A DNA stretch of 8,130 bases from Desulfobacteraceae bacterium (lineage in GTDB: Bacteria; Desulfobacterota; Desulfobacteria; Desulfobacterales; Desulfosalsimonadaceae), in assembly GCA_007136525.1 (NCBI GenBank), contig SLGU01000117.1, positions 1 to 8,130 of the forward strand. The letters run 5' to 3'. Shown piece after piece: positions 1 to 8,130 of the stretch. Position 1 is the first letter of the stretch; every line of letters starts with the position of its first letter. The notes beneath the pieces were generated by a model. That model was not told the DNA's origin and searched no databases. It was given only the letters and a program-made list of their open reading frames with translations. A program made the position numbers and the translations under genes.

Positions 1-215
1 GCCATGAGCTCCATGCCTTGGTCGATTACAGTACCTCCAATACGGCGTATCCCCCGGTTTTCGACGACAACTGGGCTTCACGGTTCTGGACTTCCACATC
101 TTCCCCTGAAAGCACGGGCGACGCTTATACAGTTGAATTCTATTACGGATATGGGGGTTATTGGGGAAAGTGGAATTATGACGTGCTGGTTCGCTGCGTC
201 CGCGGCGGCAATTAA
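1..215 (+). CDS. DUF1566 (Lcl_C) domain protein, C-terminal fragment
   Basis: This is the 3' end of a gene that begins upstream of the window; the reading frame is open from base 3 to the TAA at 213-215, giving about 70 residues. The end of the frame has the hallmark of DUF1566/Lcl_C domains: a leading ELHALVDYS segment, a central FWTSTSS stretch, an aromatic Tyr/Gly-rich strand (EFYYGYGGYWG), and the terminal VRCVRGG motif followed almost at once by the stop. DUF1566 is a C-type-lectin-like fold found in many secreted or surface proteins of aquatic bacteria, usually of unknown binding role. The start and any other domains lie outside the window, so neither localisation nor total length can be judged. 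It is followed by a 59-bp gap and then the caspase-like gene on the same strand, so it may be part of the same locus, but this is not shown. Family call is firm; function is unknown. Confidence 0.85.
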   Translation, partial: HELHALVDYSTSNTAYPPVFDDNWASRFWTSTSSPESTGDAYTVEFYYGYGGYWGKWNYDVLVRCVRGGN

Positions 216-274: not shown

Positions 275-2335
275 ATGAAAACAAAAATTATGATTTCCAT
301 CATTGCGATATGCGCGCTTATGGCGGGGTGGAGCCCCGCCTGCATGGCAGCCGAAAATGCAAAGCTGATCGTTTTTATCAGCCCTGAAAATGCAGAAGCC
401 ATATCGGCGGTCGATTCGCGCGCTTTGATCGGCAACCGGTTGATTTCCGCGGAAAATCACCTGGCAAAGGCGCTGCAGGGGAAAGGGTACCGGGTAATGA
501 CCAGCAGCGACGTGATGCCCGATAGCCGGTTGGCCGCATCCGAAATCGCCAGTGCCGCGGCGGGGGATTTAAAAAGCATTCGAAAGGCGGCCATCGTCAA
601 TTCGGCCCATTTCATTGTCAGCGGCTTCATGGATGCGGAGGTGACAGAAGAAGAAACCCTGGGCATGACCCTTCAGAAAGTCGTCGCAACCATCAGCTAC
701 AAGGTCTACGAAACAACGTCAGCCGAAGTGCTGTATATCGACTCCGGGGTGTATACCGTGGTCGGGAGATCCCCCCGGGCGCTTTTCAATACCGCCCTGG
801 AACAGATGGCCGCCGAGGTTTCCGGAAAGGTGGCGGGCGAATCGCCCCTGGCGGTCTCGCGCCAGCAGGCCGAACTGCTTGCGGAGCTCAACAGGAAAGC
901 CCAGGCCGTGGAAGTGGCTGCGGATACCGCTCCAGTGAGAATAACAACCGGAACAGGCGGCATCCCGCAGATCGTGATCATCAATCCGCCCATCGGCCGC
1001 GGGTTTGCCATTGCCCAGAAGGAGCGTGCCGTTGACATGGAAGGCATGGTGATCGACCACAGCGGTACGGGTATCCAGTACTTCAATATCAACAACGAAC
1101 CGGTGCGCCTCCTTGATGGGGGCGAGTTCCGATATGGTATCATGCTCGATCCCGGGGACAACCGTTTTGAAATGGCCGCCATGACCAGGGACGGGAAGCT
1201 CGTGAAAAAAGAAATCACCCTGACCCTGCCGGATGACAAGACGCCGCCGGAAATTGTCATCACCGAGCCGATGATTGCCCGGGGGTTTACCACGATCGTG
1301 ACCGATCCCTTACAAAACCTTCTTATCAGGGGGATCGCCAAAGACTCAATCGGCGTTCAATACGTGAGGATCAACGATCAGCCGGTCACAACCGATGCAG
1401 AAGGGAACTTTGAAGCGGATGTCGTCCTTCATGGCGATAACACCCCCATCCGGATCGTTGCGGCGGATTTGTTCGGAAACGTGGCCACAAAAGAATTTAA
1501 GGTGGAACGCGGCCAGCGCAGCCTTGTTCCGCAGGCCGGCCAAACCGCTGTTTCGCCTGCCGTGCATGCGCCTGTTTTGTGGGGGTTGGCCATTGGCGTG
1601 TCGCAATACAGCAGCAGCACGCTGGATTTGAAATATGCCGCGGCGGATGCCGAGGCCATGGCCCATTTTTTTGAAACCCAGGGGGGCGGTCTTTTTTCCG
1701 AGGTCAATTTCAAGGTGCTGACGGACAGGGTTGTAACCCGGGATGCCATTATTGAAAGCTTTGCTTCGCACCTGGGCAAGGCGGGTCCCAATGATGTCGT
1801 GTTTATCTTTGTGGCCGGCCATGGCATCAAGCACCGGCAGACCGGCTCGTATTATTTTCTGCCGTCTGATGCCGACCACGGCAATATCGTGTCCCGGGGT
1901 CTGCGCATGTCGGATTTTGAAGTGGCGGTCAGGATTTTGTCCCATAATGTCAACAAGGTCGTTATCGCCATGGACACCTGCCATTCCGGGGCGATTGAAA
2001 TCGGGCTCCGGTCGGGCATGTCGCCGGAAAACCTGGCTGAAACGCTGCAAGCGGCATCGGGCCTGTATATCCTTTCTTCCTCCAAGGCCGGGGAAGTTTC
2101 CATAGAGGGGGACGAATTCAAGCTGGATGACCCGCATTCGGGGCACGGCGTATTTACCTATGCATTGATTAAAGGGATGAGGGGCGCTGCGAATTTCGAC
2201 AATGATTCGGTTGTGACGCTCAATGAGCTTTTTCAATATGTATCGCGAAAAGTGCCCCGGTTGACACAAGGGCGTCAGCACCCTTACATGAAGGTCAGCG
2301 GAACCGACATGCCGCTGGTGCTGGTCGGGAATTAA
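275..2335 (+). CDS. Secreted caspase-like (peptidase C14) protein with CsgG/TolB-like N-terminal region and two Ig-like domains
   Basis: This 686-residue protein starts with a Sec signal peptide (about residues 1-26: MKTK, hydrophobic core, cleavage near CMAA-E). Residues ~28-195 resemble the alpha/beta domain of CsgG, FlgT and TolB-N proteins. Two beta-rich Ig-like modules follow, near 230-320 and 324-412, each opening with a similar PQIVIINPP or PPEIVITEP strand and a G-R/A-RGF turn. The C-terminal domain (~435-686) is a p20-like caspase fold. It opens with LWGLAIGVSQY and carries the catalytic dyad His516 (in VAGHG) and Cys569 (in MDTCHSG), 53 residues apart. Asp567, two residues before the Cys, matches the acidic S1-pocket residue of metacaspases, so cleavage after Arg/Lys is expected (inference). 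The dyad is intact, so the protein is probably active in the periplasm or outside the cell. The Shine-Dalgarno is weak (GGGTG, 4 nt before ATG). The next gene follows after 41 bp, suggesting an operon. Substrate is unknown. Confidence 0.88.
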   Translation: MKTKIMISIIAICALMAGWSPACMAAENAKLIVFISPENAEAISAVDSRALIGNRLISAENHLAKALQGKGYRVMTSSDVMPDSRLAASEIASAAAGDLKSIRKAAIVNSAHFIVSGFMDAEVTEEETLGMTLQKVVATISYKVYETTSAEVLYIDSGVYTVVGRSPRALFNTALEQMAAEVSGKVAGESPLAVSRQQAELLAELNRKAQAVEVAADTAPVRITTGTGGIPQIVIINPPIGRGFAIAQKERAVDMEGMVIDHSGTGIQYFNINNEPVRLLDGGEFRYGIMLDPGDNRFEMAAMTRDGKLVKKEITLTLPDDKTPPEIVITEPMIARGFTTIVTDPLQNLLIRGIAKDSIGVQYVRINDQPVTTDAEGNFEADVVLHGDNTPIRIVAADLFGNVATKEFKVERGQRSLVPQAGQTAVSPAVHAPVLWGLAIGVSQYSSSTLDLKYAAADAEAMAHFFETQGGGLFSEVNFKVLTDRVVTRDAIIESFASHLGKAGPNDVVFIFVAGHGIKHRQTGSYYFLPSDADHGNIVSRGLRMSDFEVAVRILSHNVNKVVIAMDTCHSGAIEIGLRSGMSPENLAETLQAASGLYILSSSKAGEVSIEGDEFKLDDPHSGHGVFTYALIKGMRGAANFDNDSVVTLNELFQYVSRKVPRLTQGRQHPYMKVSGTDMPLVLVGN

Positions 2336-2364
2336 CCGGGCGGTGCGGCCCGCACAGACAAAAA

Positions 2365-2370
2365 GGGGGA
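2365..2370 (+). promoter_or_regulatory. Ribosome binding site fixing the GTG start at 2377
   Basis: GGGGGA lies 6 nt before GTG 2377. This supports GTG as the start of the CsgG-like lipoprotein; the GTG at 2372 is in another frame and meets a stop two codons later. Confidence 0.6.
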
Positions 2371-2376
2371 TGTGTT

Positions 2377-3081
2377 GTGAAACGGCGATCTAACATTCAA
2401 TTTGCCATTGCAATATTACTGGTGGCGCTCCTGGCGGCATTGCATGGGTGTACCACAATGCGCACGGACGGGACAGACCAGGCGGATATTTCACAAGCAC
2501 CGCAGATCGATTGGGCGCAGCTCCCGCCGGCGCCCCTGGAAAAAGAACTGATTGCGGTTGCCGGTTTTGAAAACAGGAGCACTTACTCGGCAGACCGATT
2601 GTGGGATACGTCTTCACAAATACTGGCGTCTTCACTCCTGCGGGCAGGGTATTTCCGTGTGGTGGAATGGGAGCGGATGAAGCAGCTTTTTGACTGGGAC
2701 ACCCTGAGCCATGCCAGCATCGTGAAGACGCCTGAAAACCTGGAACGGGCCCGGCGGATTCTGTTGTGCGAGTATTTCGTGTCCGGCGCCATTACCCAAT
2801 TCAATGTCAACCAGCATTCCCAGGTCAGCGCTTTTTCCAAGGGCAAGCAGATCGACACCACGGTGCGGGTGGACCTGCTCCTCCAGGATGCGCGGTCCGG
2901 GGAATATCTTGCCACCGGCACAGGGTCGCACATGGTCCGGCAGACGTATACGGGCGGGATGTCAGGGGGCCAGACCGGTTCATGGGATTCTCACGCAGCG
3001 GATCAGGCCCTTTCCGCAGCAATTGAACTGGCCTTGTTCGAACTGATTGAGAATTTCGACAAGGCCCGCGGGGCCCAATAA
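2377..3081 (+). CDS. CsgG-family outer-membrane lipoprotein
   Basis: The 234-residue product has a basic n-region (MKRRSN), a hydrophobic core and a lipobox LHGC with the lipidated Cys at residue 25. His at -2 is less common but acceptable. The mature ~210 residues match the CsgG family: an opening strand with IAVAGFENRS, a WDTSSQILASSLL helix, then FRVVEWERM, a CEYFVSGAITQF strand, DTTVRVDLLLQDARSG, and a C-terminal amphipathic helix. In curli systems CsgG forms a nonameric secretion pore in the outer membrane. The mature protein here is shorter than E. coli CsgG (about 262 residues), and the two stretches corresponding to membrane hairpins (around 145-160 and 185-210, the latter Gly/Ser-rich) are short. 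Pore formation is therefore uncertain, and a periplasmic scaffold role as in LpoB-like relatives is possible. It sits 41 bp after the caspase gene and is separated from the GNA1162-like gene by a hairpin repeat. No curli subunit gene is present, so I give no csg symbol. Confidence 0.8.
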   Translation: MKRRSNIQFAIAILLVALLAALHGCTTMRTDGTDQADISQAPQIDWAQLPPAPLEKELIAVAGFENRSTYSADRLWDTSSQILASSLLRAGYFRVVEWERMKQLFDWDTLSHASIVKTPENLERARRILLCEYFVSGAITQFNVNQHSQVSAFSKGKQIDTTVRVDLLLQDARSGEYLATGTGSHMVRQTYTGGMSGGQTGSWDSHAADQALSAAIELALFELIENFDKARGAQ

Positions 3082-3084
3082 TGA

Positions 3085-3108
3085 TGGACGCGTAAAAAGT
3101 CGAGATCA
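3085..3108 (+). repeat. Degenerate duplicate of the repeat terminus
   Basis: The stretch just before the hairpin element (GGACGCG, then AAAAAGTCGAGATC) resembles the first ~26 bases of the element itself (GACGAC, then AAAAAAGTCCAAGATC), with small gaps. It looks like a second, decayed copy of the element end in tandem. The match is short and by eye. Confidence 0.4.
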
Positions 3109-3236
3109 GACGACTTTGAAAAAAGTCCAAGATCAAGGCTTGCGCAATGTTTGAAGAATTGAGTCACGCCTTTGGCGTGATGAGATTCATCGGAAATTGC
3201 GCGTAACGCAGATATTGGACTTTTTGCGAAGTCGTC
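3109..3236 (+). repeat. Long imperfect palindromic (MITE/REP-like) element, complete copy
   Basis: The 128-bp segment starts with GACGACTT and ends with AAGTCGTC. Its left and right arms (about 55 nt each) pair with each other over most of their length, with conserved blocks at the ends (GACGACTT), in AAAAAGTCCAA, and in GCGCAAT. The apex is a perfect 7-bp stem, TCACGCC / GGCGTGA (3164-3170 / 3174-3180), closed by TTT. A second copy in reverse orientation begins at 8034. No ORF is encoded. The size, hairpin shape and multicopy nature fit a non-autonomous mobile or REP-like element; no transposase is visible. Lying 27 bp after one gene and 25 bp before the next, it could attenuate or stabilise an operon transcript (inference). 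Confidence 0.8.
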
Positions 3237-3261
3237 AATAATGAAATGGTTTTAAGTCGTT

Positions 3262-3954
3262 ATGCGCTGCCTCGGGTGTTTCATCATTTTATTTGTATTT
3301 TTTTTTGCATTCCCTGCATTTTCAGGTGTTTTTGCTGAAATTGTGCCGGGGGGCATTGAAACAAGAGAGAACTGGTGGCTTGCAGAAGACTTTAAGCAGT
3401 ATGCCATTGGCAGGGTTGCGGTGTTGCCCATGGAGAACCTGTCTTTGGAGCCCGGCGTCGAAAAAGCTTTATATGATGCGGTATACGCCCGCCTGACGGC
3501 CAAGGGCTACATGAAGATCGATGTGGATGAAGTCACTTCGGTCATGGATCGACTTGGCATCCAGACGGCGGGGCAGCTTGCCGGTATTTCGCCTGCCCGG
3601 CTGGGGGAGATATTGCGCTGCGATGCGATTATGAAAGGGCGTGTCGATCAGTCCGGCGCAATCCATATGGGGGTTTATGATGCCCTCGTGGTTTCGATTT
3701 CTCTTCAGTTGGTGGATTGCCGGACAGGGAAAACCCTCTGGACTACCGAGCAGTGGCGCGCCGCACACCGGCAGTGGCATGCCGATCCGTTCAACCTGCT
3801 CTTGAGTTTCGCCTCCCATGAAATGGCATCGAGAGAACTGCGGGTGGCCTGGCTGGTTCAGGAGATGCTGAAAACCCTGCCGGACGGTCCTGTTCAGGTC
3901 GTGGAGGACAATTTCCTGAATGAGGCCCTGACGATTCCGGCGGCCGAAGAATAA
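3262..3954 (+). CDS. GNA1162/DUF799-type exported protein
   Basis: The 230-residue product has a strongly hydrophobic N-terminal signal sequence (residues ~7-25, cleavage likely after SGVFA). The body matches the GNA1162/DUF799 family: YAIGRVAVLPMENLS, then a helix with ALYDAVYARLTAKGY, a DEVTSVMDRLGI segment, AGISPARLGEILRCDAIMKGRV (the typical 'LGADALLYG'-like core), and VSISLQLVDCRTGKTLWT. Members adopt a TolB-N/CsgG-like fold and are usually lipoproteins; in Neisseria and others they sit beside a CsgG-family lipoprotein gene, as here. Unusually, no lipobox is present: Cys3 and Cys6 lie before the hydrophobic core. An in-frame TAA at 3253 fixes the start at ATG 3262, yet no Shine-Dalgarno is visible, and a hairpin repeat ends 25 bp upstream, so the leader may have been altered by insertion. 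The partner lipoprotein of the known trio (DUF4810) is absent. Cellular role is unknown; an envelope scaffold is likely. Confidence 0.75.
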   Translation: MRCLGCFIILFVFFFAFPAFSGVFAEIVPGGIETRENWWLAEDFKQYAIGRVAVLPMENLSLEPGVEKALYDAVYARLTAKGYMKIDVDEVTSVMDRLGIQTAGQLAGISPARLGEILRCDAIMKGRVDQSGAIHMGVYDALVVSISLQLVDCRTGKTLWTTEQWRAAHRQWHADPFNLLLSFASHEMASRELRVAWLVQEMLKTLPDGPVQVVEDNFLNEALTIPAAEE

Positions 3955-3960
3955 TCACTT

Positions 3961-3966
3961 GGAGGG
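3961..3966 (+). promoter_or_regulatory. Strong ribosome binding site fixing a TTG start
   Basis: GGAGGG lies 8 nt before TTG 3975, just after the preceding stop codon. It is the best Shine-Dalgarno in the window and supports the TTG as start of the phosphatase; the next residues (LSFGYGTSAG) already belong to the PP2C domain, so a later start would cut it. Confidence 0.7.
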
Positions 3967-3974
3967 CCAGTTCC

Positions 3975-4856
3975 TTGGGGGTTCTGTCTTTTGGATATGG
4001 GACAAGTGCCGGCATCGTAAGGCAGGAGAATGAAGACAGCCTGTGCGTGCGCCCGGATATCGGCCTGTGGGCGGTGGCCGATGGCATGGGCGGGTACAAG
4101 GGGGGAGAGACGGCCAGCCGCATAACCGTGGAGCAACTGGCCGAAGACGCAGCCGCCGGTATGCCGCTTGCCGAATCCATCTCCGGCATCCACCATCGTA
4201 TCGTAGCCCTTGCCCGAACGGATTCGGCATATGAATCCATGGGTTCTACGGTCGTTGCTGTAAAAACAGACGGGAAGGTGTATGAGGTTGCATGGGTGGG
4301 TGACAGCCGGGCCTATCTGTGGGACGGCCGGGAATTGTCCCGCCTGACCCGGGATCATTCTTATATTCAGTATCTTATCGATAGTGGCGTCATTTCCGAA
4401 GCCGACGCCTTGGAGCATCCGGAGCGCCATGTTATTCTGCAGGCGCTGGGTGCTGAAGAAATCAAGGCTGTGGATGTCGATGTCGTTCGCGGGGGGTTCA
4501 GAGAAAACGAGAAAATTCTATTGTGCAGCGATGGACTGACCAATGAGGTTGGGGATTCCCAGATTTCGTCCATACTGCGTCAGCCGTTTTCAGAGCAGGT
4601 TCTGGTCGACCACTTGATTGCTGCCGCCAAGGAAAACGGCGGCTCCGACAATATTTCCGCCATACTGATTGCCGCTGACAGTACCGCCCTTCCGGAAAAG
4701 GCGGGAGGAAAAACGCCGCACAATCCATCGGGCGGTTCTCCCCCCGGTATTTTGCGCCCGGATGCAGCTGAAACCAACTACCCTTTCTGGTTTCTGATGG
4801 TGATTGTTTTACTGGTACTTTTTCTATCGGTTATGTTTGTCTACGATATTTTATAG
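3975..4856 (+). CDS. PPM/PP2C-type Ser/Thr protein phosphatase with C-terminal membrane anchor
   Basis: The 293-residue protein carries a complete bacterial PP2C domain (about residues 5-235) with metal-binding and catalytic motifs in order: RQENEDS (Asp21), VADGMGG (Asp36-Gly40), GSTVVA, WVGDSRAYL (Asp110), LTRDHS, LLCSDGLTNEV (Asp186) and GGSDNIS (Asp225). It should be an active Mn/Mg-dependent phosphatase that removes phosphate from Ser/Thr of proteins. A Pro/Gly-rich linker (~237-262) leads to one transmembrane helix at the very C-terminus (~268-290: FWFLMVIVLLVLFLSVMFV), so the enzyme is tethered to the inner face of the cytoplasmic membrane. It starts at TTG with a strong Shine-Dalgarno 20 bp after the preceding gene, suggesting an operon. 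The downstream gene encodes an FHA domain, which binds phosphothreonine; the phosphatase therefore probably counteracts a Ser/Thr kinase that is not in this window. No gene symbol can be assigned safely. Confidence 0.93.
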   Translation: MGVLSFGYGTSAGIVRQENEDSLCVRPDIGLWAVADGMGGYKGGETASRITVEQLAEDAAAGMPLAESISGIHHRIVALARTDSAYESMGSTVVAVKTDGKVYEVAWVGDSRAYLWDGRELSRLTRDHSYIQYLIDSGVISEADALEHPERHVILQALGAEEIKAVDVDVVRGGFRENEKILLCSDGLTNEVGDSQISSILRQPFSEQVLVDHLIAAAKENGGSDNISAILIAADSTALPEKAGGKTPHNPSGGSPPGILRPDAAETNYPFWFLMVIVLLVLFLSVMFVYDIL

Positions 4857-4904
4857 AAGCCGTCTGAAAATTGTCCTTTGGCCCGATGTCTTTGTTTTAA
4901 CAAA

Positions 4905-4930
4905 CGAAATCGAAATCGGGATCGAAATCG
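4905..4930 (+). repeat. Left arm of 26-bp inverted repeat (TCGAAA-type)
   Basis: The arm is made of repeated CGAAAT units with an internal CGGGAT. It is matched in reverse complement by 5034-5059 at 25 of 26 positions. The arms are 103 bp apart and could form a long stem. A low-complexity hexamer repeat arising by slippage is an alternative, but the inverted placement and shared GGGA interruption argue for a true palindromic element. Confidence 0.8.
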
Positions 4931-4950
4931 AAATAACGCAAAATAACGCA
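4931..4950 (+). repeat. Tandem decamer AAATAACGCA x2
   Basis: Two perfect, adjacent copies of AAATAACGCA follow directly on the left inverted-repeat arm. Function is unknown; it could be part of the repeat element or a binding site. Confidence 0.7.
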
Positions 4951-5033
4951 ATATGACATGTGAACGCCATAATCTTTATGACTGCCGTCTTTTAAAAAAA
5001 GTAAGATGGCATGGCCCAGGGAGTTGCAAAACC

Positions 5034-5059
5034 CGATTTCGTTCCCGATTTCGATTTCG
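5034..5059 (-). repeat. Right arm of 26-bp inverted repeat (TCGAAA-type)
   Basis: Reverse complement of 4905-4930 with a single mismatch (at the position after the GGGA interruption). It ends about 115 bp before the next gene. Confidence 0.8.
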
Positions 5060-5160
5060 AAAAAACCAAATACAGATAAGCGGATGGGAGCCTGGTCTGA
5101 GGTTTTAAACAGTTTCCAACGGTCCTTTCAATTGCGTCAGGTCTGACGGGAAAAACGAGT

Positions 5161-5165
5161 GGGGA
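5161..5165 (+). promoter_or_regulatory. Ribosome binding site favouring GTG 5176 over TTG 5167
   Basis: GGGGA lies 10 nt before GTG 5176 but only 1 nt before the in-frame TTG 5167, which is too close to serve it. The FHA domain begins at VIHVILKKG, so either start leaves it intact. Confidence 0.45.
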
Positions 5166-5175
5166 TTTGTTTCCG

Positions 5176-6612
5176 GTGATTCATGTTATCCTGAAAAAAG
5201 GCCATACCGGCCGTGAAGAATATAAATTTACACGCTCATTTCAAATCGGCCGCTCCGCCGACTGCGACGTTCAGGTTCTTGAAGAAGATGTCAGCCGCCG
5301 GCATGCAGCCGTTGAATACCGAAACGGGCAATGGGTGATCAGCGACCTGGAAAGCAGCAACGGGATCTGGGTTAACGGCGAGAAGGTCGCTGAGGTGCGG
5401 TTGCATGATCACACCGAAGTCGAACTCGGCTCAGGCGGTCCCCTTCTTCTTTTTAAAATCCCCGGTGAGGTCGCCACTGCACTGCATCCACCATCCTCGC
5501 CCGTGGATAAGGGCGATCGCGAATCCATAGAGGACTATGCCCGGTATTATTTCGGCGATGCTTCTGAAAATGGGATCGGGGAGCGCACCATGATGGTGCG
5601 CAAGGCTTTTCAGGGCGTCCGCCGCAGTCATAAGCGCCGGTACATCTGGATCATTGCCGTTTCGGCCAGCATTTGTCTGCTTGCTGTAACCTTTGCCATT
5701 TTCAAGCACCTTGAAACTGAAAAACAGAAACGGCTGGCCGAAGACATCTTTTATGCCATGAAATCACTTGAGCTTGAGTTTGCAGAGGTGTTGGCGCTTG
5801 CCCGAAAAACCGAGGACGTGGAAACGATTAAAGCCGTCGAAGGGTTCAAGGCAAAATACGGCTCCCTGGAAGAGAGTTATGACCGGTTTGTGGATTCGCT
5901 GGGTATTTACGGCAAGACGGTCGATGAAAAGGACAAAGCCATATATAGGGTCGCCAGGATTTTTGGGGAAAGTGAGGTCAACATGCCTGAAGCTTTCAAA
6001 AAGGAGGTCCTGAATTATATCAGAAAGTGGCAAACGACCGGCAGAATGAAGTCCGCCCTGGCGCGTGCGGCCCGTCACGGATATGTGCACCCGATTGCAG
6101 GCGCCATGCAGCATTATGACCTGCCGCCTCAATTTTTTTACGTGGGCCTTCAGGAAAGTAATTTTGACACCCATGCGATCGGACCGGAAACCCGGTTCGG
6201 TATTGCAAAAGGAATGTGGCAGTTCATTCCAACGACAGCCGAAGAATTCGGGCTCAAGGTAGGTCCGCTGGCCAATATGCGCAAACCCGATGAGCTTGAT
6301 GATCGCCACGATTTTGAAAAATCGACCCAGGCGGCCGCCCGGTATCTCCGGCATATCTACGACACGGATGCAAAGGCCTCGGGCCTTCTTGTCATTGCCT
6401 CCTATAACTGGGGGCAGGGGCGGGTCAACCGGCTGATCCGGCAGATGCCGGCGCATCCCGGGGAAAGAAATTTCTGGAAGTTTCTGGAGCAATACCGCGA
6501 CAGTATTCCCAGAGAGACGTATGATTATGTTTTCTATATTTTTTCTGCTGCGGTGATCGGCGAGAATCCGGCGATTTTCGGGTTTGATTTCGACAATCCG
6601 CTCTTGCTTTGA
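5176..6612 (+). CDS. FHA domain - transmembrane - lytic transglycosylase (MltD/SLT-like) fusion
   Basis: Taken from GTG 5176 the protein has 478 residues (481 from TTG 5167). Residues ~1-95 form an FHA domain with the phosphothreonine-binding signature: GRS (Arg26, Ser27), SRRH (Ser40-His43) and SSNGIWVNG (Ser60-Gly68). A linker of ~55 residues, ending in basic residues (RRSHKRR), leads to one membrane helix (~156-176). A helical, charged region (~177-290) follows. Residues ~296-478 are an SLT domain with the family 1 motifs: GLQESNF with catalytic Glu327, GMWQFIPTTAEEFGL (346-360) and ASYNWGQGRVNR (408-419). These resemble MltD more than Slt70. Topology follows: FHA in the cytoplasm, peptidoglycan cleavage in the periplasm. 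MltD-type enzymes cleave the MurNAc-GlcNAc bond to give 1,6-anhydro ends. No LysM repeat is present, unlike MltD. With the PP2C gene just upstream, phosphorylation-controlled wall remodelling is a plausible role. The downstream gene follows closely. Confidence 0.9.
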   Translation: MIHVILKKGHTGREEYKFTRSFQIGRSADCDVQVLEEDVSRRHAAVEYRNGQWVISDLESSNGIWVNGEKVAEVRLHDHTEVELGSGGPLLLFKIPGEVATALHPPSSPVDKGDRESIEDYARYYFGDASENGIGERTMMVRKAFQGVRRSHKRRYIWIIAVSASICLLAVTFAIFKHLETEKQKRLAEDIFYAMKSLELEFAEVLALARKTEDVETIKAVEGFKAKYGSLEESYDRFVDSLGIYGKTVDEKDKAIYRVARIFGESEVNMPEAFKKEVLNYIRKWQTTGRMKSALARAARHGYVHPIAGAMQHYDLPPQFFYVGLQESNFDTHAIGPETRFGIAKGMWQFIPTTAEEFGLKVGPLANMRKPDELDDRHDFEKSTQAAARYLRHIYDTDAKASGLLVIASYNWGQGRVNRLIRQMPAHPGERNFWKFLEQYRDSIPRETYDYVFYIFSAAVIGENPAIFGFDFDNPLLL

Positions 6613-6662
6613 CCGGCAATTCCCGGAAAAAGGCTATGGTCGCAATTGGGAAAGCGTTTCAT

Positions 6663-8033
6663 ATGGGTACGATACATCGGTTGCTATTCTTTTCCGTCCT
6701 GATTTTTGCGTCGTCCCCTGCATGGGCTGGTTCCTATGACCTTGAAGGTATCATCAACCGGGCCATAGCGGCCAACTGGGGAATGATCGATGCGCAAGAG
6801 AGCGTCCAGAGAGCCGGGCTTCGGATTGAAGCCGCCGAGTCGGAATTCGAACTCAAGTTTTTTCCGGTGGCCGGCATCGGTCTTGCTGGGGATGACGGGT
6901 CATCCGATGTGGTTTTCAGCATGGGTGTCAGGGTGGAGAAAATAACGGAATTCGGCACCCAGATCGAATTGACGCCTTCGGTTCAGAGGTCTGATGACCA
7001 ATACCGGAACAGGGCCAATCTTCGCATTACGCAGCCGCTTCTGCGTGGAGCCGGCAGGGACTATACCCTGTCAGGGGTGTACAGCGCCCGGTTTGGCGAA
7101 AGGACGGCCATGCGCGCGCGGCATCAGAGAGAAATCGATACGGTTGTCGATGCCGTGCGCCACGGTTACGAGGTGGTCCGCCAGAGGGAGTTGTTGCGAC
7201 TGCGCGAGGAATCCCATCAGCGGTTGAAGGATCTTGCCGAGGCTACGGATATCAAGAAGCGCATGGGGCTTGTGGATGCCATGGATCTCTTTCGGGTCCG
7301 AATTCAGCTTACCCAGGCAGTCGAAGAGCGCAACCGGAGCCTGGAAATGTATACTGAAACCCTGGATGCGTTAAAAATTTTTCTTGCGCTGCCGTTGGAT
7401 GAAGCGATCGACGTTACACTCCCCATGACTTTTGACCGGATTTATCCGGATGAAGCCGGAATGGTCCAAACCGCACTGGCCAACAGGATAGAACTCGAAC
7501 AGATCCGCGATGCCCTGGCCGAAGCCCGGCGCCTTTCAGACAGGGCCGGAAGCGATACCCTGCCGGAACTGGATATCCGGCTTTCGCTGAGCCAGGCAGG
7601 GGAGCCGTCATCGCATTTTCCGGGATCAACGCCGGATCAGACGACCTGGAGTATAAGTCTCGGCTCGACAACGGATTTCAGGCGGACCGCTCAAAAGGCC
7701 CTATACGAGGAAAGTGTGATCAGTGTCGGGCAGGCCGCGAGAAGGCATCGCATCGCAACAGACGAGATTGCCGCCCAGGTCAAGCGTGAAATCCGGAGCC
7801 TGGAGCGTCTGGACAAAGCCATAACCAACCAGGAAGATCAGATTCACCAGGCAAGCGGGCAGCTCGAGCTCGCCCGGGTCAAATTTGAGCATGGCATGGC
7901 CGACAACTTCGACCTCATCGATGCCGAGATATCTTTGAGACGTGCCCAAACCCAGCTGGTGTCGGCCGTTATCGAATATATCGTCGGCCAGTACCGCCTG
8001 CGTGCAGTTATCGGCACGCTGGTTCACCATTAA
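6663..8033 (+). CDS. TolC-family outer-membrane channel protein
   Basis: From ATG 6663 the protein has 457 residues and a clear Sec signal peptide (~1-22, cleavage after SPAWA). The same frame is open from TTG 6609, which overlaps the previous stop codon, and ATG 6636 is also possible; 6663 is chosen because it places the signal peptide at the N-terminus. The body has the pseudo-duplicated layout of TolC: an N-terminal DLEGIINRAIAANW helix, a beta segment with FFPVAGIG, QPLLRGAG (typical 'QPLLR' of the family), long coiled-coil helices rich in Arg/Glu/Gln (~140-225), then a second repeat with ELDIRLSLSQAG, WSISLG and helices ending in ARVKFEHGMADNFDLIDAEISLRRAQ. TolC trimers form outer-membrane exit ducts for efflux pumps or type I secretion. 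No membrane-fusion protein or transporter is encoded beside it, so its partner is unknown. The signal peptide carries no lipobox. It is likely co-transcribed with the FHA-transglycosylase. Confidence 0.88.
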   Translation: MGTIHRLLFFSVLIFASSPAWAGSYDLEGIINRAIAANWGMIDAQESVQRAGLRIEAAESEFELKFFPVAGIGLAGDDGSSDVVFSMGVRVEKITEFGTQIELTPSVQRSDDQYRNRANLRITQPLLRGAGRDYTLSGVYSARFGERTAMRARHQREIDTVVDAVRHGYEVVRQRELLRLREESHQRLKDLAEATDIKKRMGLVDAMDLFRVRIQLTQAVEERNRSLEMYTETLDALKIFLALPLDEAIDVTLPMTFDRIYPDEAGMVQTALANRIELEQIRDALAEARRLSDRAGSDTLPELDIRLSLSQAGEPSSHFPGSTPDQTTWSISLGSTTDFRRTAQKALYEESVISVGQAARRHRIATDEIAAQVKREIRSLERLDKAITNQEDQIHQASGQLELARVKFEHGMADNFDLIDAEISLRRAQTQLVSAVIEYIVGQYRLRAVIGTLVHH

Positions 8034-8130
8034 TTGACGACTTCGCAAAAAGTCCAATATCTGCGTTACGCGCAATTTCCGAAGAATCTCACGTACGGCT
8101 AAGTACGATCAATTCTTCAAAAATTGCGCA
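8034..8130 (-). repeat. MITE/REP-like element, inverted partial copy (runs off the window)
   Basis: Bases 8033-8091 match the reverse complement of 3181-3239 at 58 of 59 positions, and 8109-8130 match the reverse complement of 3141-3162 at 21 of 22. Between them the apical hairpin differs in sequence: here it is CGTAC / GTACG (8092-8096 / 8103-8107) with a GGCTAA loop. The element begins right at the TolC stop codon. About 32 more bases would be expected beyond the window to complete the copy. Confidence 0.85.

Follow-up and report, generated by a model that had tools for sequence, protein, structure and literature searches.

Gene content of the window

The window analysed here is an 8,130-nt stretch of contig SLGU01000117.1 (assembly GCA_007136525.1) from a Desulfobacteraceae bacterium (Desulfosalsimonadaceae), and it carries six genes for envelope proteins (g1 to g6) that would form, on a reading to which we give an even chance, the middle of a phospho-regulated trans-envelope locus for the export or display of adhesin-like surface proteins. 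This reading is carried by related genomes, in which the linkage of g1, g2 and g3 with TolC, HlyD, an ABC ATPase, a MacB-type permease and an unnamed protein, here called X, recurs, often with the addition of an Lcl_C/PKD lipoprotein, a Ser/Thr kinase, FHA proteins and a PP2C phosphatase.

The six co-directional open reading frames (ORFs) described in a first-pass annotation were all found in place on the forward strand, and every family call it had made exceeds the curated Pfam cut-off. The first gene, g1 (275..2335), encodes a caspase-immunoglobulin (Ig) protein of 686 amino acids (Peptidase_C14, 71 bits; Glucodextran_B, 37 bits) and is followed by g2 (2377..3081, GTG start), for a CsgG-family lipoprotein (PF03783, 51 bits against a cut-off of 20.8), and by g3 (3262..3954), for a GNA1162-like envelope protein (PF05643, 50 bits; PDB entry 4hrv, E 8.8e-6). 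A PP2C Ser/Thr phosphatase is encoded by g4 (3975..4856, TTG start; PF13672, PP2C_2, 47 bits), a protein with an FHA domain, a membrane segment and an SLT transglycosylase domain by g5 (5167..6612, TTG start; PF00498, 68 bits; PF01464, 62 bits), and a TolC-family outer-membrane channel by g6 (6663..8033; PF02321, OEP, 85 bits over two stretches).

Hydrophobic segments that fit an N-terminal signal occur in g1, g2 and g3 (residues 6-24 in g3), and the export earlier proposed for the caspase is accordingly still predicted from its signal-like N-terminus. The proposed membrane tethering of the phosphatase is likewise predicted, from a C-terminal hydrophobic segment (271-289) of g4, which scores 210.8 bits against the NCBIfam Stp1 model, below that model's own cut-off of 230. 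The single membrane segment of g5 (160-178) is positioned between FHA and SLT. All 39 aligned rows keep the lipobox cysteine of g2 (Cys25), and no PDB chain sequence matched the g2 profile at 0.01. In g6 no hydrophobic segment above the threshold used was found; its start, earlier placed at TTG 6609, has been replaced by a probable ATG at 6663, because the orthologue in a related genome (G202) aligns only from residue 19 and because a moderately hydrophobic N-terminal stretch ending in AWA looks signal-like by eye.

Ahead of g1, and ending 59 bases before it, lies the 3' end of an Lcl_C (DUF1566) gene (3..215, forward strand), which matches PF07603 at E 1.1e-7 and 32.5 bits, below the cut-off of 34.9; it scores 57 bits against a profile of the Lcl lipoproteins that precede g1 in G202, G283 and G277, and is probably the tail of a surface lipoprotein gene. 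Two gaps between the genes are widened by insertions absent from the closest related locus, L001. The one between g2 and g3 (3076..3235, about 160 bp) holds a hairpin (about 3096-3240) that resembles a miniature inverted-repeat transposable element (MITE), about 143 bp long with inverted arms at 3109-3134 and 3211-3236. A second MITE-like copy follows directly after g6 (8033..8130, an inverted repeat of 3181-3239), and further copies lie at L127 2170-2311 (90%) and, between HlyD and ABC, at L095 14370-14509 (78%). The other insertion (4859..5126, about 260 bp, arms 4905-4930 and 5034-5059) fills the g4-g5 gap, which measures about 50 bp in L001; a short inverted repeat resembling it was seen at L127 6841-6872. 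Both intergenic insertions are outside the module. Rfam gave no match. Among plasmid records 108 had matches, and in none of these did any place cover 80% of g1.

Recurrence of the locus in related genomes

Two anchors had been suggested for comparing gene neighbourhoods, the FHA-transglycosylase and the caspase, and each proved unsuitable. Of 93 confirmed relatives of g5, 80 loci were compared, many on short contigs, and the module was kept at one of them (L001, with a g5 90% identical); as neighbourhoods differ among these loci, this anchor was dropped for g2. The caspase was not specific: among 291 genomes from the order of G001, a Desulfobacterales metagenome-assembled genome (MAG) that contains L001 and is the closest relative of the window, a g1 profile matched 12 at 1e-60, five of them without g2 or the module there, and the profile had itself been built from the 7 genomes shared between the g1 and g2 searches.

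With g2 as anchor, a close relative (E at most 1e-20) was found in 12 of these 291 genomes. At least four of the six window families stand at one locus in seven of the 12 (G202, G277, G001, G283, G289, G260 and G065), with G089 as an eighth if a CsgG-caspase fusion is counted as two, and all six in G202 and, in another gene order, G277. Linkage of at least four genes, the test that had been put forward for distant genomes, is thus borne out in other genomes; the recurrence is mainly within one order.

Syntenic with the window is G202, which reads kinase-X-Lcl-g1-g2-g3-PP2C-FHA/SLT-TolC-HlyD-ABC-MacB; G277 reads Lcl-TPR-g1-g2-g3-TolC-HlyD-ABC-MacB-PP2C-FHA/SLT and G283 kinase-X-Lcl-g1-g2-g3-TolC-HlyD-ABC-MacB. 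FHA genes precede the kinase in G289 (FHA genes-kinase-g1-g2-g3-X-X-HlyD-ABC-MacB-TolC, PP2C opposite) and G260 (FHA genes-kinase-g1-g2-g3-X-X-TolC-HlyD-ABC-MacB, PP2C about 20 kb off, past Tad genes), and also in G065, where the locus is spread over about 31 kb (g3-X-TolC-HlyD-ABC-MacB, Tad genes, FHA genes-kinase-g1-g2). Shorter pieces are seen in G001 (g2-g3-PP2C-FHA/SLT-TolC-HlyD fragment, contig of 6.2 kb), G174 (g3-g2-g1, contig of 5.4 kb) and G187 (g3-g2-X, at a contig end). G142 has g3-g2-X-TolC-HlyD-ABC-MacB-Lcl, with a g1-like match of 45 bits that lacks a caspase between g2 and X; G089 has g3, a CsgG-caspase fusion, X and TolC-HlyD-ABC-MacB, and G045 has g3, such a fusion and X, with no exporter within 18 kb. 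Summed over the 12 loci, in which some absences fall at contig ends, g3 is present in 12, TolC and HlyD in 9 each, ABC and MacB in 8 each, the caspase in 9 (twice as the fusion), kinase and PP2C in 5 each and FHA-SLT in 3. The component profiles were trained on most of the loci they scored; sets of TolC, HlyD, ABC and MacB outside the training, from L129 (G065) and L133 (G246), reached 309-613 bits, and the untrained MacB of G089 reached 529 bits. Weak g2 relatives in G003 and G011 (E about 1e-12; L106, L107) were set aside, there being no module at these places.

Caspase, CsgG and GNA1162 are recurring partners of the exporter, and PP2C and the FHA-transglycosylase are optional in the locus. 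The window cuts the locus at both ends, and therefore the kinase, X, the lipoprotein and HlyD-ABC-MacB fell outside the earlier reading. HlyD follows TolC in L001 and L095. Past about 5720, after the HlyD fragment, L001 has by eye the look of a foreign join, with a reverse-strand ORF, and is perhaps an assembly chimera.

These neighbourhoods also speak to whether unrelated envelope genes might have come to lie together by chance. Such an account could draw on the FHA-SLT neighbours, which differ in 79 of 80 loci, and on a Terriglobia FHA-SLT locus (L022 2463-11722) with MacB-, HlyD- and TolC-like genes nearby on the other strand. It is already contradicted by the recurrence of g2 and its neighbourhood, since 7 of the 12 genomes with g2 share the neighbours, in rearranged orders and with g1 proteins as little as about 40% identical, and we consider it scarcely credible.

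The exporter and protein X

The TolC protein g6 probably serves a split MacB-type exporter as its exit duct, because relatives add HlyD, ABC and MacB downstream. The permease of G202 has MacB_PCD and FtsX domains and matches solved MacB at 2.8e-42; it is encoded, at 417 amino acids, by a gene separate from that of the 228-amino-acid ATPase. The arrangement shares with MacAB-TolC the channel and, in relatives, the HlyD adaptor and MacB-type permease, and differs from it in the split of ATPase and permease, which in E. coli MacB are fused, and in its linkage to the caspase, CsgG, GNA1162, X and kinase/FHA/PP2C genes. Curli CsgG and meningococcal GNA1162 provide the Pfam families of g2 and g3, with 4hrv matching the latter; what differs here is the linkage to a caspase and an exporter. 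In G202 52-16508, none of the 12 ORFs that were labelled or scanned with Pfam is a curli subunit gene, the other genomes having been partly scanned.

X is a predicted secreted protein of about 360 amino acids. Its N-terminal part is constant and, in the structure model, Ig-like; it also has a hydrophobic stretch rich in Gly and Ala, and its C-terminal domain varies between genomes. Neither the G202 nor the G283 member matched Pfam, the G202 member had no match in PADLOC, and an X profile matched no PDB sequence. In some members the C-terminal part weakly matches Lipocalin_4 or an Ig model, and the structure model (mean pLDDT 69) matches Ig-like parts weakly (best E 9e-5, TM 0.23). We detected X in 16 of the 291 genomes of the order, including all 12 with g2, using a profile that held rows from most of these genomes; the hypergeometric chance of this overlap is 3e-18 if genomes are treated as independent, which they are not. 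With a held-out profile, built from 24 rows outside these loci, X was recovered in all 12, at 120-560 bits over the loci searched, and in none of the 80 FHA-SLT loci. X and g2 share a contig, within about 31 kb, in 9 of the 12 genomes. In G246, which has no g2, X lies beside TolC-HlyD-ABC-MacB, and in the other X-only genomes, G031 (a 3.1-kb contig), G122 and G154, no exporter of this type adjoins X. Several genomes place X next to Lcl_C, PKD/LRR, fn3 or cysteine-rich proteins.

MacB, TolC and HlyD are best known for small-molecule, peptide or lipid loads, and the exporter might accordingly be a MacB-type efflux or lipoprotein-handling pump for such a substrate, with caspase, CsgG and GNA1162 as mere neighbours. 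The exporter-free locus of G045, where g3, the CsgG-caspase fusion and X stand by themselves, is what this would lead one to expect. Set against it, g2-g3 lie beside TolC-HlyD in 9 of 12 loci, and genes for X and Lcl_C stand among those of both halves of the locus; we regard such a pump as improbable.

The caspase and its relatives

The caspase dyad of g1, H516 and C569, is invariant in two alignments (8 of 8 and 15 of 15 rows), so that g1 has the His-Cys dyad in a caspase fold by which a Caspase C14 protease is recognized. The protein runs from a signal-like segment through an N-terminal region and Ig-like domains, one assigned by Pfam and a second predicted from the structure model, to the caspase domain. 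Foldseek rows for g1 include FlgT and HP0492, without ranges; these matches may concern the N-terminal region. No PDB sequence matched g1, and a named protein match at 77% identity is from Desulfosalsimonadaceae (P0150). Orthocaspases and metacaspases, as well as the MALT1 paracaspase, resemble g1 in caspase fold, intact HC dyad and Ig-like domains, and g1 differs in its predicted export and in its place within a secretion locus. CsgG and caspase are fused in one protein that adjoins g3 at L104 9367-11124 and L105 9034-10719, and this natural fusion favours a physical link between the two. A different caspase, in a caspase-PEGA-FGE-sulfatase protein, follows the FHA-SLT gene of another Desulfobacterales MAG (L004 2186-4081).

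Passages of PMC7159879 describe bacterial caspases as often serving conflict systems, and the combination of caspase, kinase and membrane parts could be seen as a conflict or anti-phage system. In PADLOC, a caspase model matched g1 at 70 bits and many PD-T4-6 kinase models matched the G202 kinase; however, over the ten proteins searched these matches concerned caspase and kinase domains and, weakly, the FtsX part of the permease. The EACC1-associated caspase model (NF047832) gave 85.6 bits for g1, under its cut-off of 140, which leaves g1 outside that family. The caspase carries Ig domains as well as a signal-like N-terminus, and a TolC-MacB exporter accompanies it. A conflict role is in our estimation very improbable, more so than that of a pump.

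Kinase and phosphatase genes and the FHA-transglycosylase

Kinase, PP2C and FHA genes are encoded together in G202, G289 and G260. Type VI secretion is under threonine-phosphorylation control by PpkA, PppA and Fha. Several type VII variants carry kinase, phosphatase and FHA genes, according to passages of PMC11217815. The present locus likewise has a Ser/Thr kinase, a PP2C phosphatase and an FHA protein beside a secretion machine, and it differs in that the exporter is of the MacB type and FHA is fused across a membrane segment to a transglycosylase. Structural genes of a type VI secretion system (T6SS) were found neither in the window by Pfam nor among the scanned ORFs of G202 52-16508. In G283 (L141 3620-5959), a VipA/VipB-like (T6SS sheath) ORF and a double FHA gene were seen past the kinase, near the contig end.

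By record titles, FHA-SLT proteins are widespread, among others in Acidobacteria, Ignavibacteria, KSB1, Bacteroidota, Gemmatimonadota and Nitrospira. The catalytic glutamate of SLT (E330) is present in all 80 homologues compared, and the FHA residues R29, S43 and N65 are kept in 66, 74 and 68 of them. PP2C lies at most 5 kb from FHA-SLT in 7 of the 80 loci and at 5-10 kb in none; the corresponding counts for a kinase are 14 and 2, with 597 kb examined in the nearer and 409 kb in the farther interval. At L009 6667-9377 a Desulfopila FHA-SLT gene follows genes for pentapeptide and DUF3540/DUF2345 proteins, surroundings that we take to be T6SS-effector-like and that are not the module; by clustering, some of these neighbours recur at L003 and L008.

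Tad and retroelement neighbours

The locus runs on without a break into Tad genes in G260 and G065 (Flp, RcpC, secretin, CpaE-like T2SSE, T2SSE and T2SSF; TadE/TadG labels were given by eye, and the one scanned matched no Pfam family). In G289 the contig with the Tad genes stops in T2SSF and the next FHA gene opens the one with the module; this genome and G277, the latter over three contigs, appear to share the layout. Inside the Tad part of G065 (L143 9112-12756), an ORF of 1214 amino acids starts with a signal-like segment and matches nothing in Pfam.

One could therefore see the module as a cassette accessory to a Tad (type IVc) pilus or to a Tad-like contact-dependent killing machine, in which kinase, PP2C and FHA control pilus assembly, while the caspase and exporter serve to process or deliver adhesins or effectors linked to the pilus. 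The single continuous Tad-module locus of G260 and G065 supports this, the contig ends of G289 and G277 fit, and RcpC is enriched in g2 genomes (5 of 12, compared with 35 of the 279 others, 40 of 291 overall; Fisher 0.015). A precedent is the Kil system of Myxococcus, described in PMC8460266 as a Tad-like apparatus with many FHA proteins. Like G260 and G065 it joins several FHA proteins to Tad parts, and the main text of that paper mentions neither kinase nor phosphatase, neither caspase nor TolC. The two genomes closest to the window, G001 and G202, differ from Kil in that RcpC has no match in these drafts (2.5-2.8 Mb), which are among the 7 of 12 g2 genomes without such a match. Moreover, RcpC and the module of G142 are on separate contigs, and G202 and G283 have exporter and X with an RcpC match absent from the genome. 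Taken together, we find a Tad cassette unlikely, if somewhat less so than an efflux pump.

Beside the module of G142 (L101 14079-17470) lies a diversity-generating retroelement with Avd and a reverse transcriptase that has a C-terminal MutS_I match. Its template (14614-14757) corresponds to four variable repeats in neighbouring Lcl_C-type genes, with mismatches at template adenines in 17 of 17, 24 of 24, 14 of 17 and 19 of 21 cases. Diversity-generating retroelements with DUF1566 targets have reportedly been found, and the reverse transcriptase, Avd and adenine-mutated template and variable repeats in Lcl_C genes of G142 are alike. Reverse transcriptase matches are strong in 2 of the 12 g2 genomes, weak in 4 more and adjoin the module in G142 only; because a strong match occurs in just 2 of 12, we rejected the retroelement as a core part.

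Discussion

The earlier suggestion that these parts point to a trans-envelope export machine is strengthened by the recurring linkage to an exporter. In the export or display machine that we favour, the MacB-type permease and its separate ATPase would drive periplasmic cargo through HlyD and TolC, by the mechanism of MacAB, the cargo being the neighbouring adhesin-like lipoproteins, X, or both. At the exit site, g2 and g3 may form an outer-membrane ring or anchor. Orthocaspases are reported to cleave after basic residues (PMC6426788), and by analogy g1, placed at the same site, would trim the cargo, probably after such a residue. On the cytoplasmic side the kinase would phosphorylate a partner that is then read by the FHA domain of g5, which would position the transglycosylase to open the wall at the site of duct assembly; PP2C would reset the switch.

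Several findings weigh against this proposal. The exporter genes lie outside the window, their presence being inferred from G202 and from the HlyD fragment in L001, and a MacB pump can also carry small molecules or peptides. Most of the 12 loci lack any given one of PP2C, kinase and FHA-SLT, and therefore the regulation may be an add-on. There is no caspase near g2 in G142 and G187, none of TolC, HlyD and MacB was found in the 18 kb read around g2 in G045, and five genomes have a g1-like caspase with neither g2 nor the module (G024, G073, G090, G154 and G296; L136-L140). The structure model of g1 has a mean pLDDT of 69. Finally, the spread is narrow: in a phylum sample of 395 genomes, in which part of the candidates was scored, one genome, G001 itself, has a close g2.

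At a threshold of 1e-25, seven genomes of this phylum sample matched, six of them at just 91-101 bits with longer frames, and these six we count as probable distant CsgG proteins. No g2 relative was found in 12 genomes from other phyla, picked because they have FHA-SLT loci, in a search run without a positive control, nor at 1e-30 in 295 genomes of the phylum of the Nitrospira locus, again without a positive control and with part of the candidates scored. One protein match named Nitrospirota exists (P0099). In the genomes sampled the locus is largely confined to one order. The parts of the machine belong to known families; as far as full-text searches of open-licence literature reach, with most subscription papers outside their scope, no description of the gene set was found, and the combination, together with X, appears to be undescribed there.

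A more specific version may be sketched, which we offer tentatively and think unlikely to hold in full, albeit not as unlikely as a Tad cassette. It is that of a class of surface-display machines in which kinase, PP2C and FHA license wall cleavage, a split MacB pump and TolC export Lcl_C lipoproteins and X, and an Ig-caspase seated on a CsgG/GNA1162 ring cleaves the cargo and thereby releases or activates it; such a machine could be coupled to a Tad pilus, and a diversity-generating retroelement could make what it exports hypervariable. Recognition of surfaces or other cells, or attachment to them, is the role suggested by the Tad and retroelement neighbours.

If the export reading is true, a caspase-type protease would lie on the export route of a Gram-negative cell, and the presence of FHA and SLT on one chain would provide a membrane-crossing link from cytoplasmic threonine phosphorylation to cleavage of the wall. 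It would also put a name to a conserved exporter locus, the unnamed family X included, that is open to testing gene by gene.

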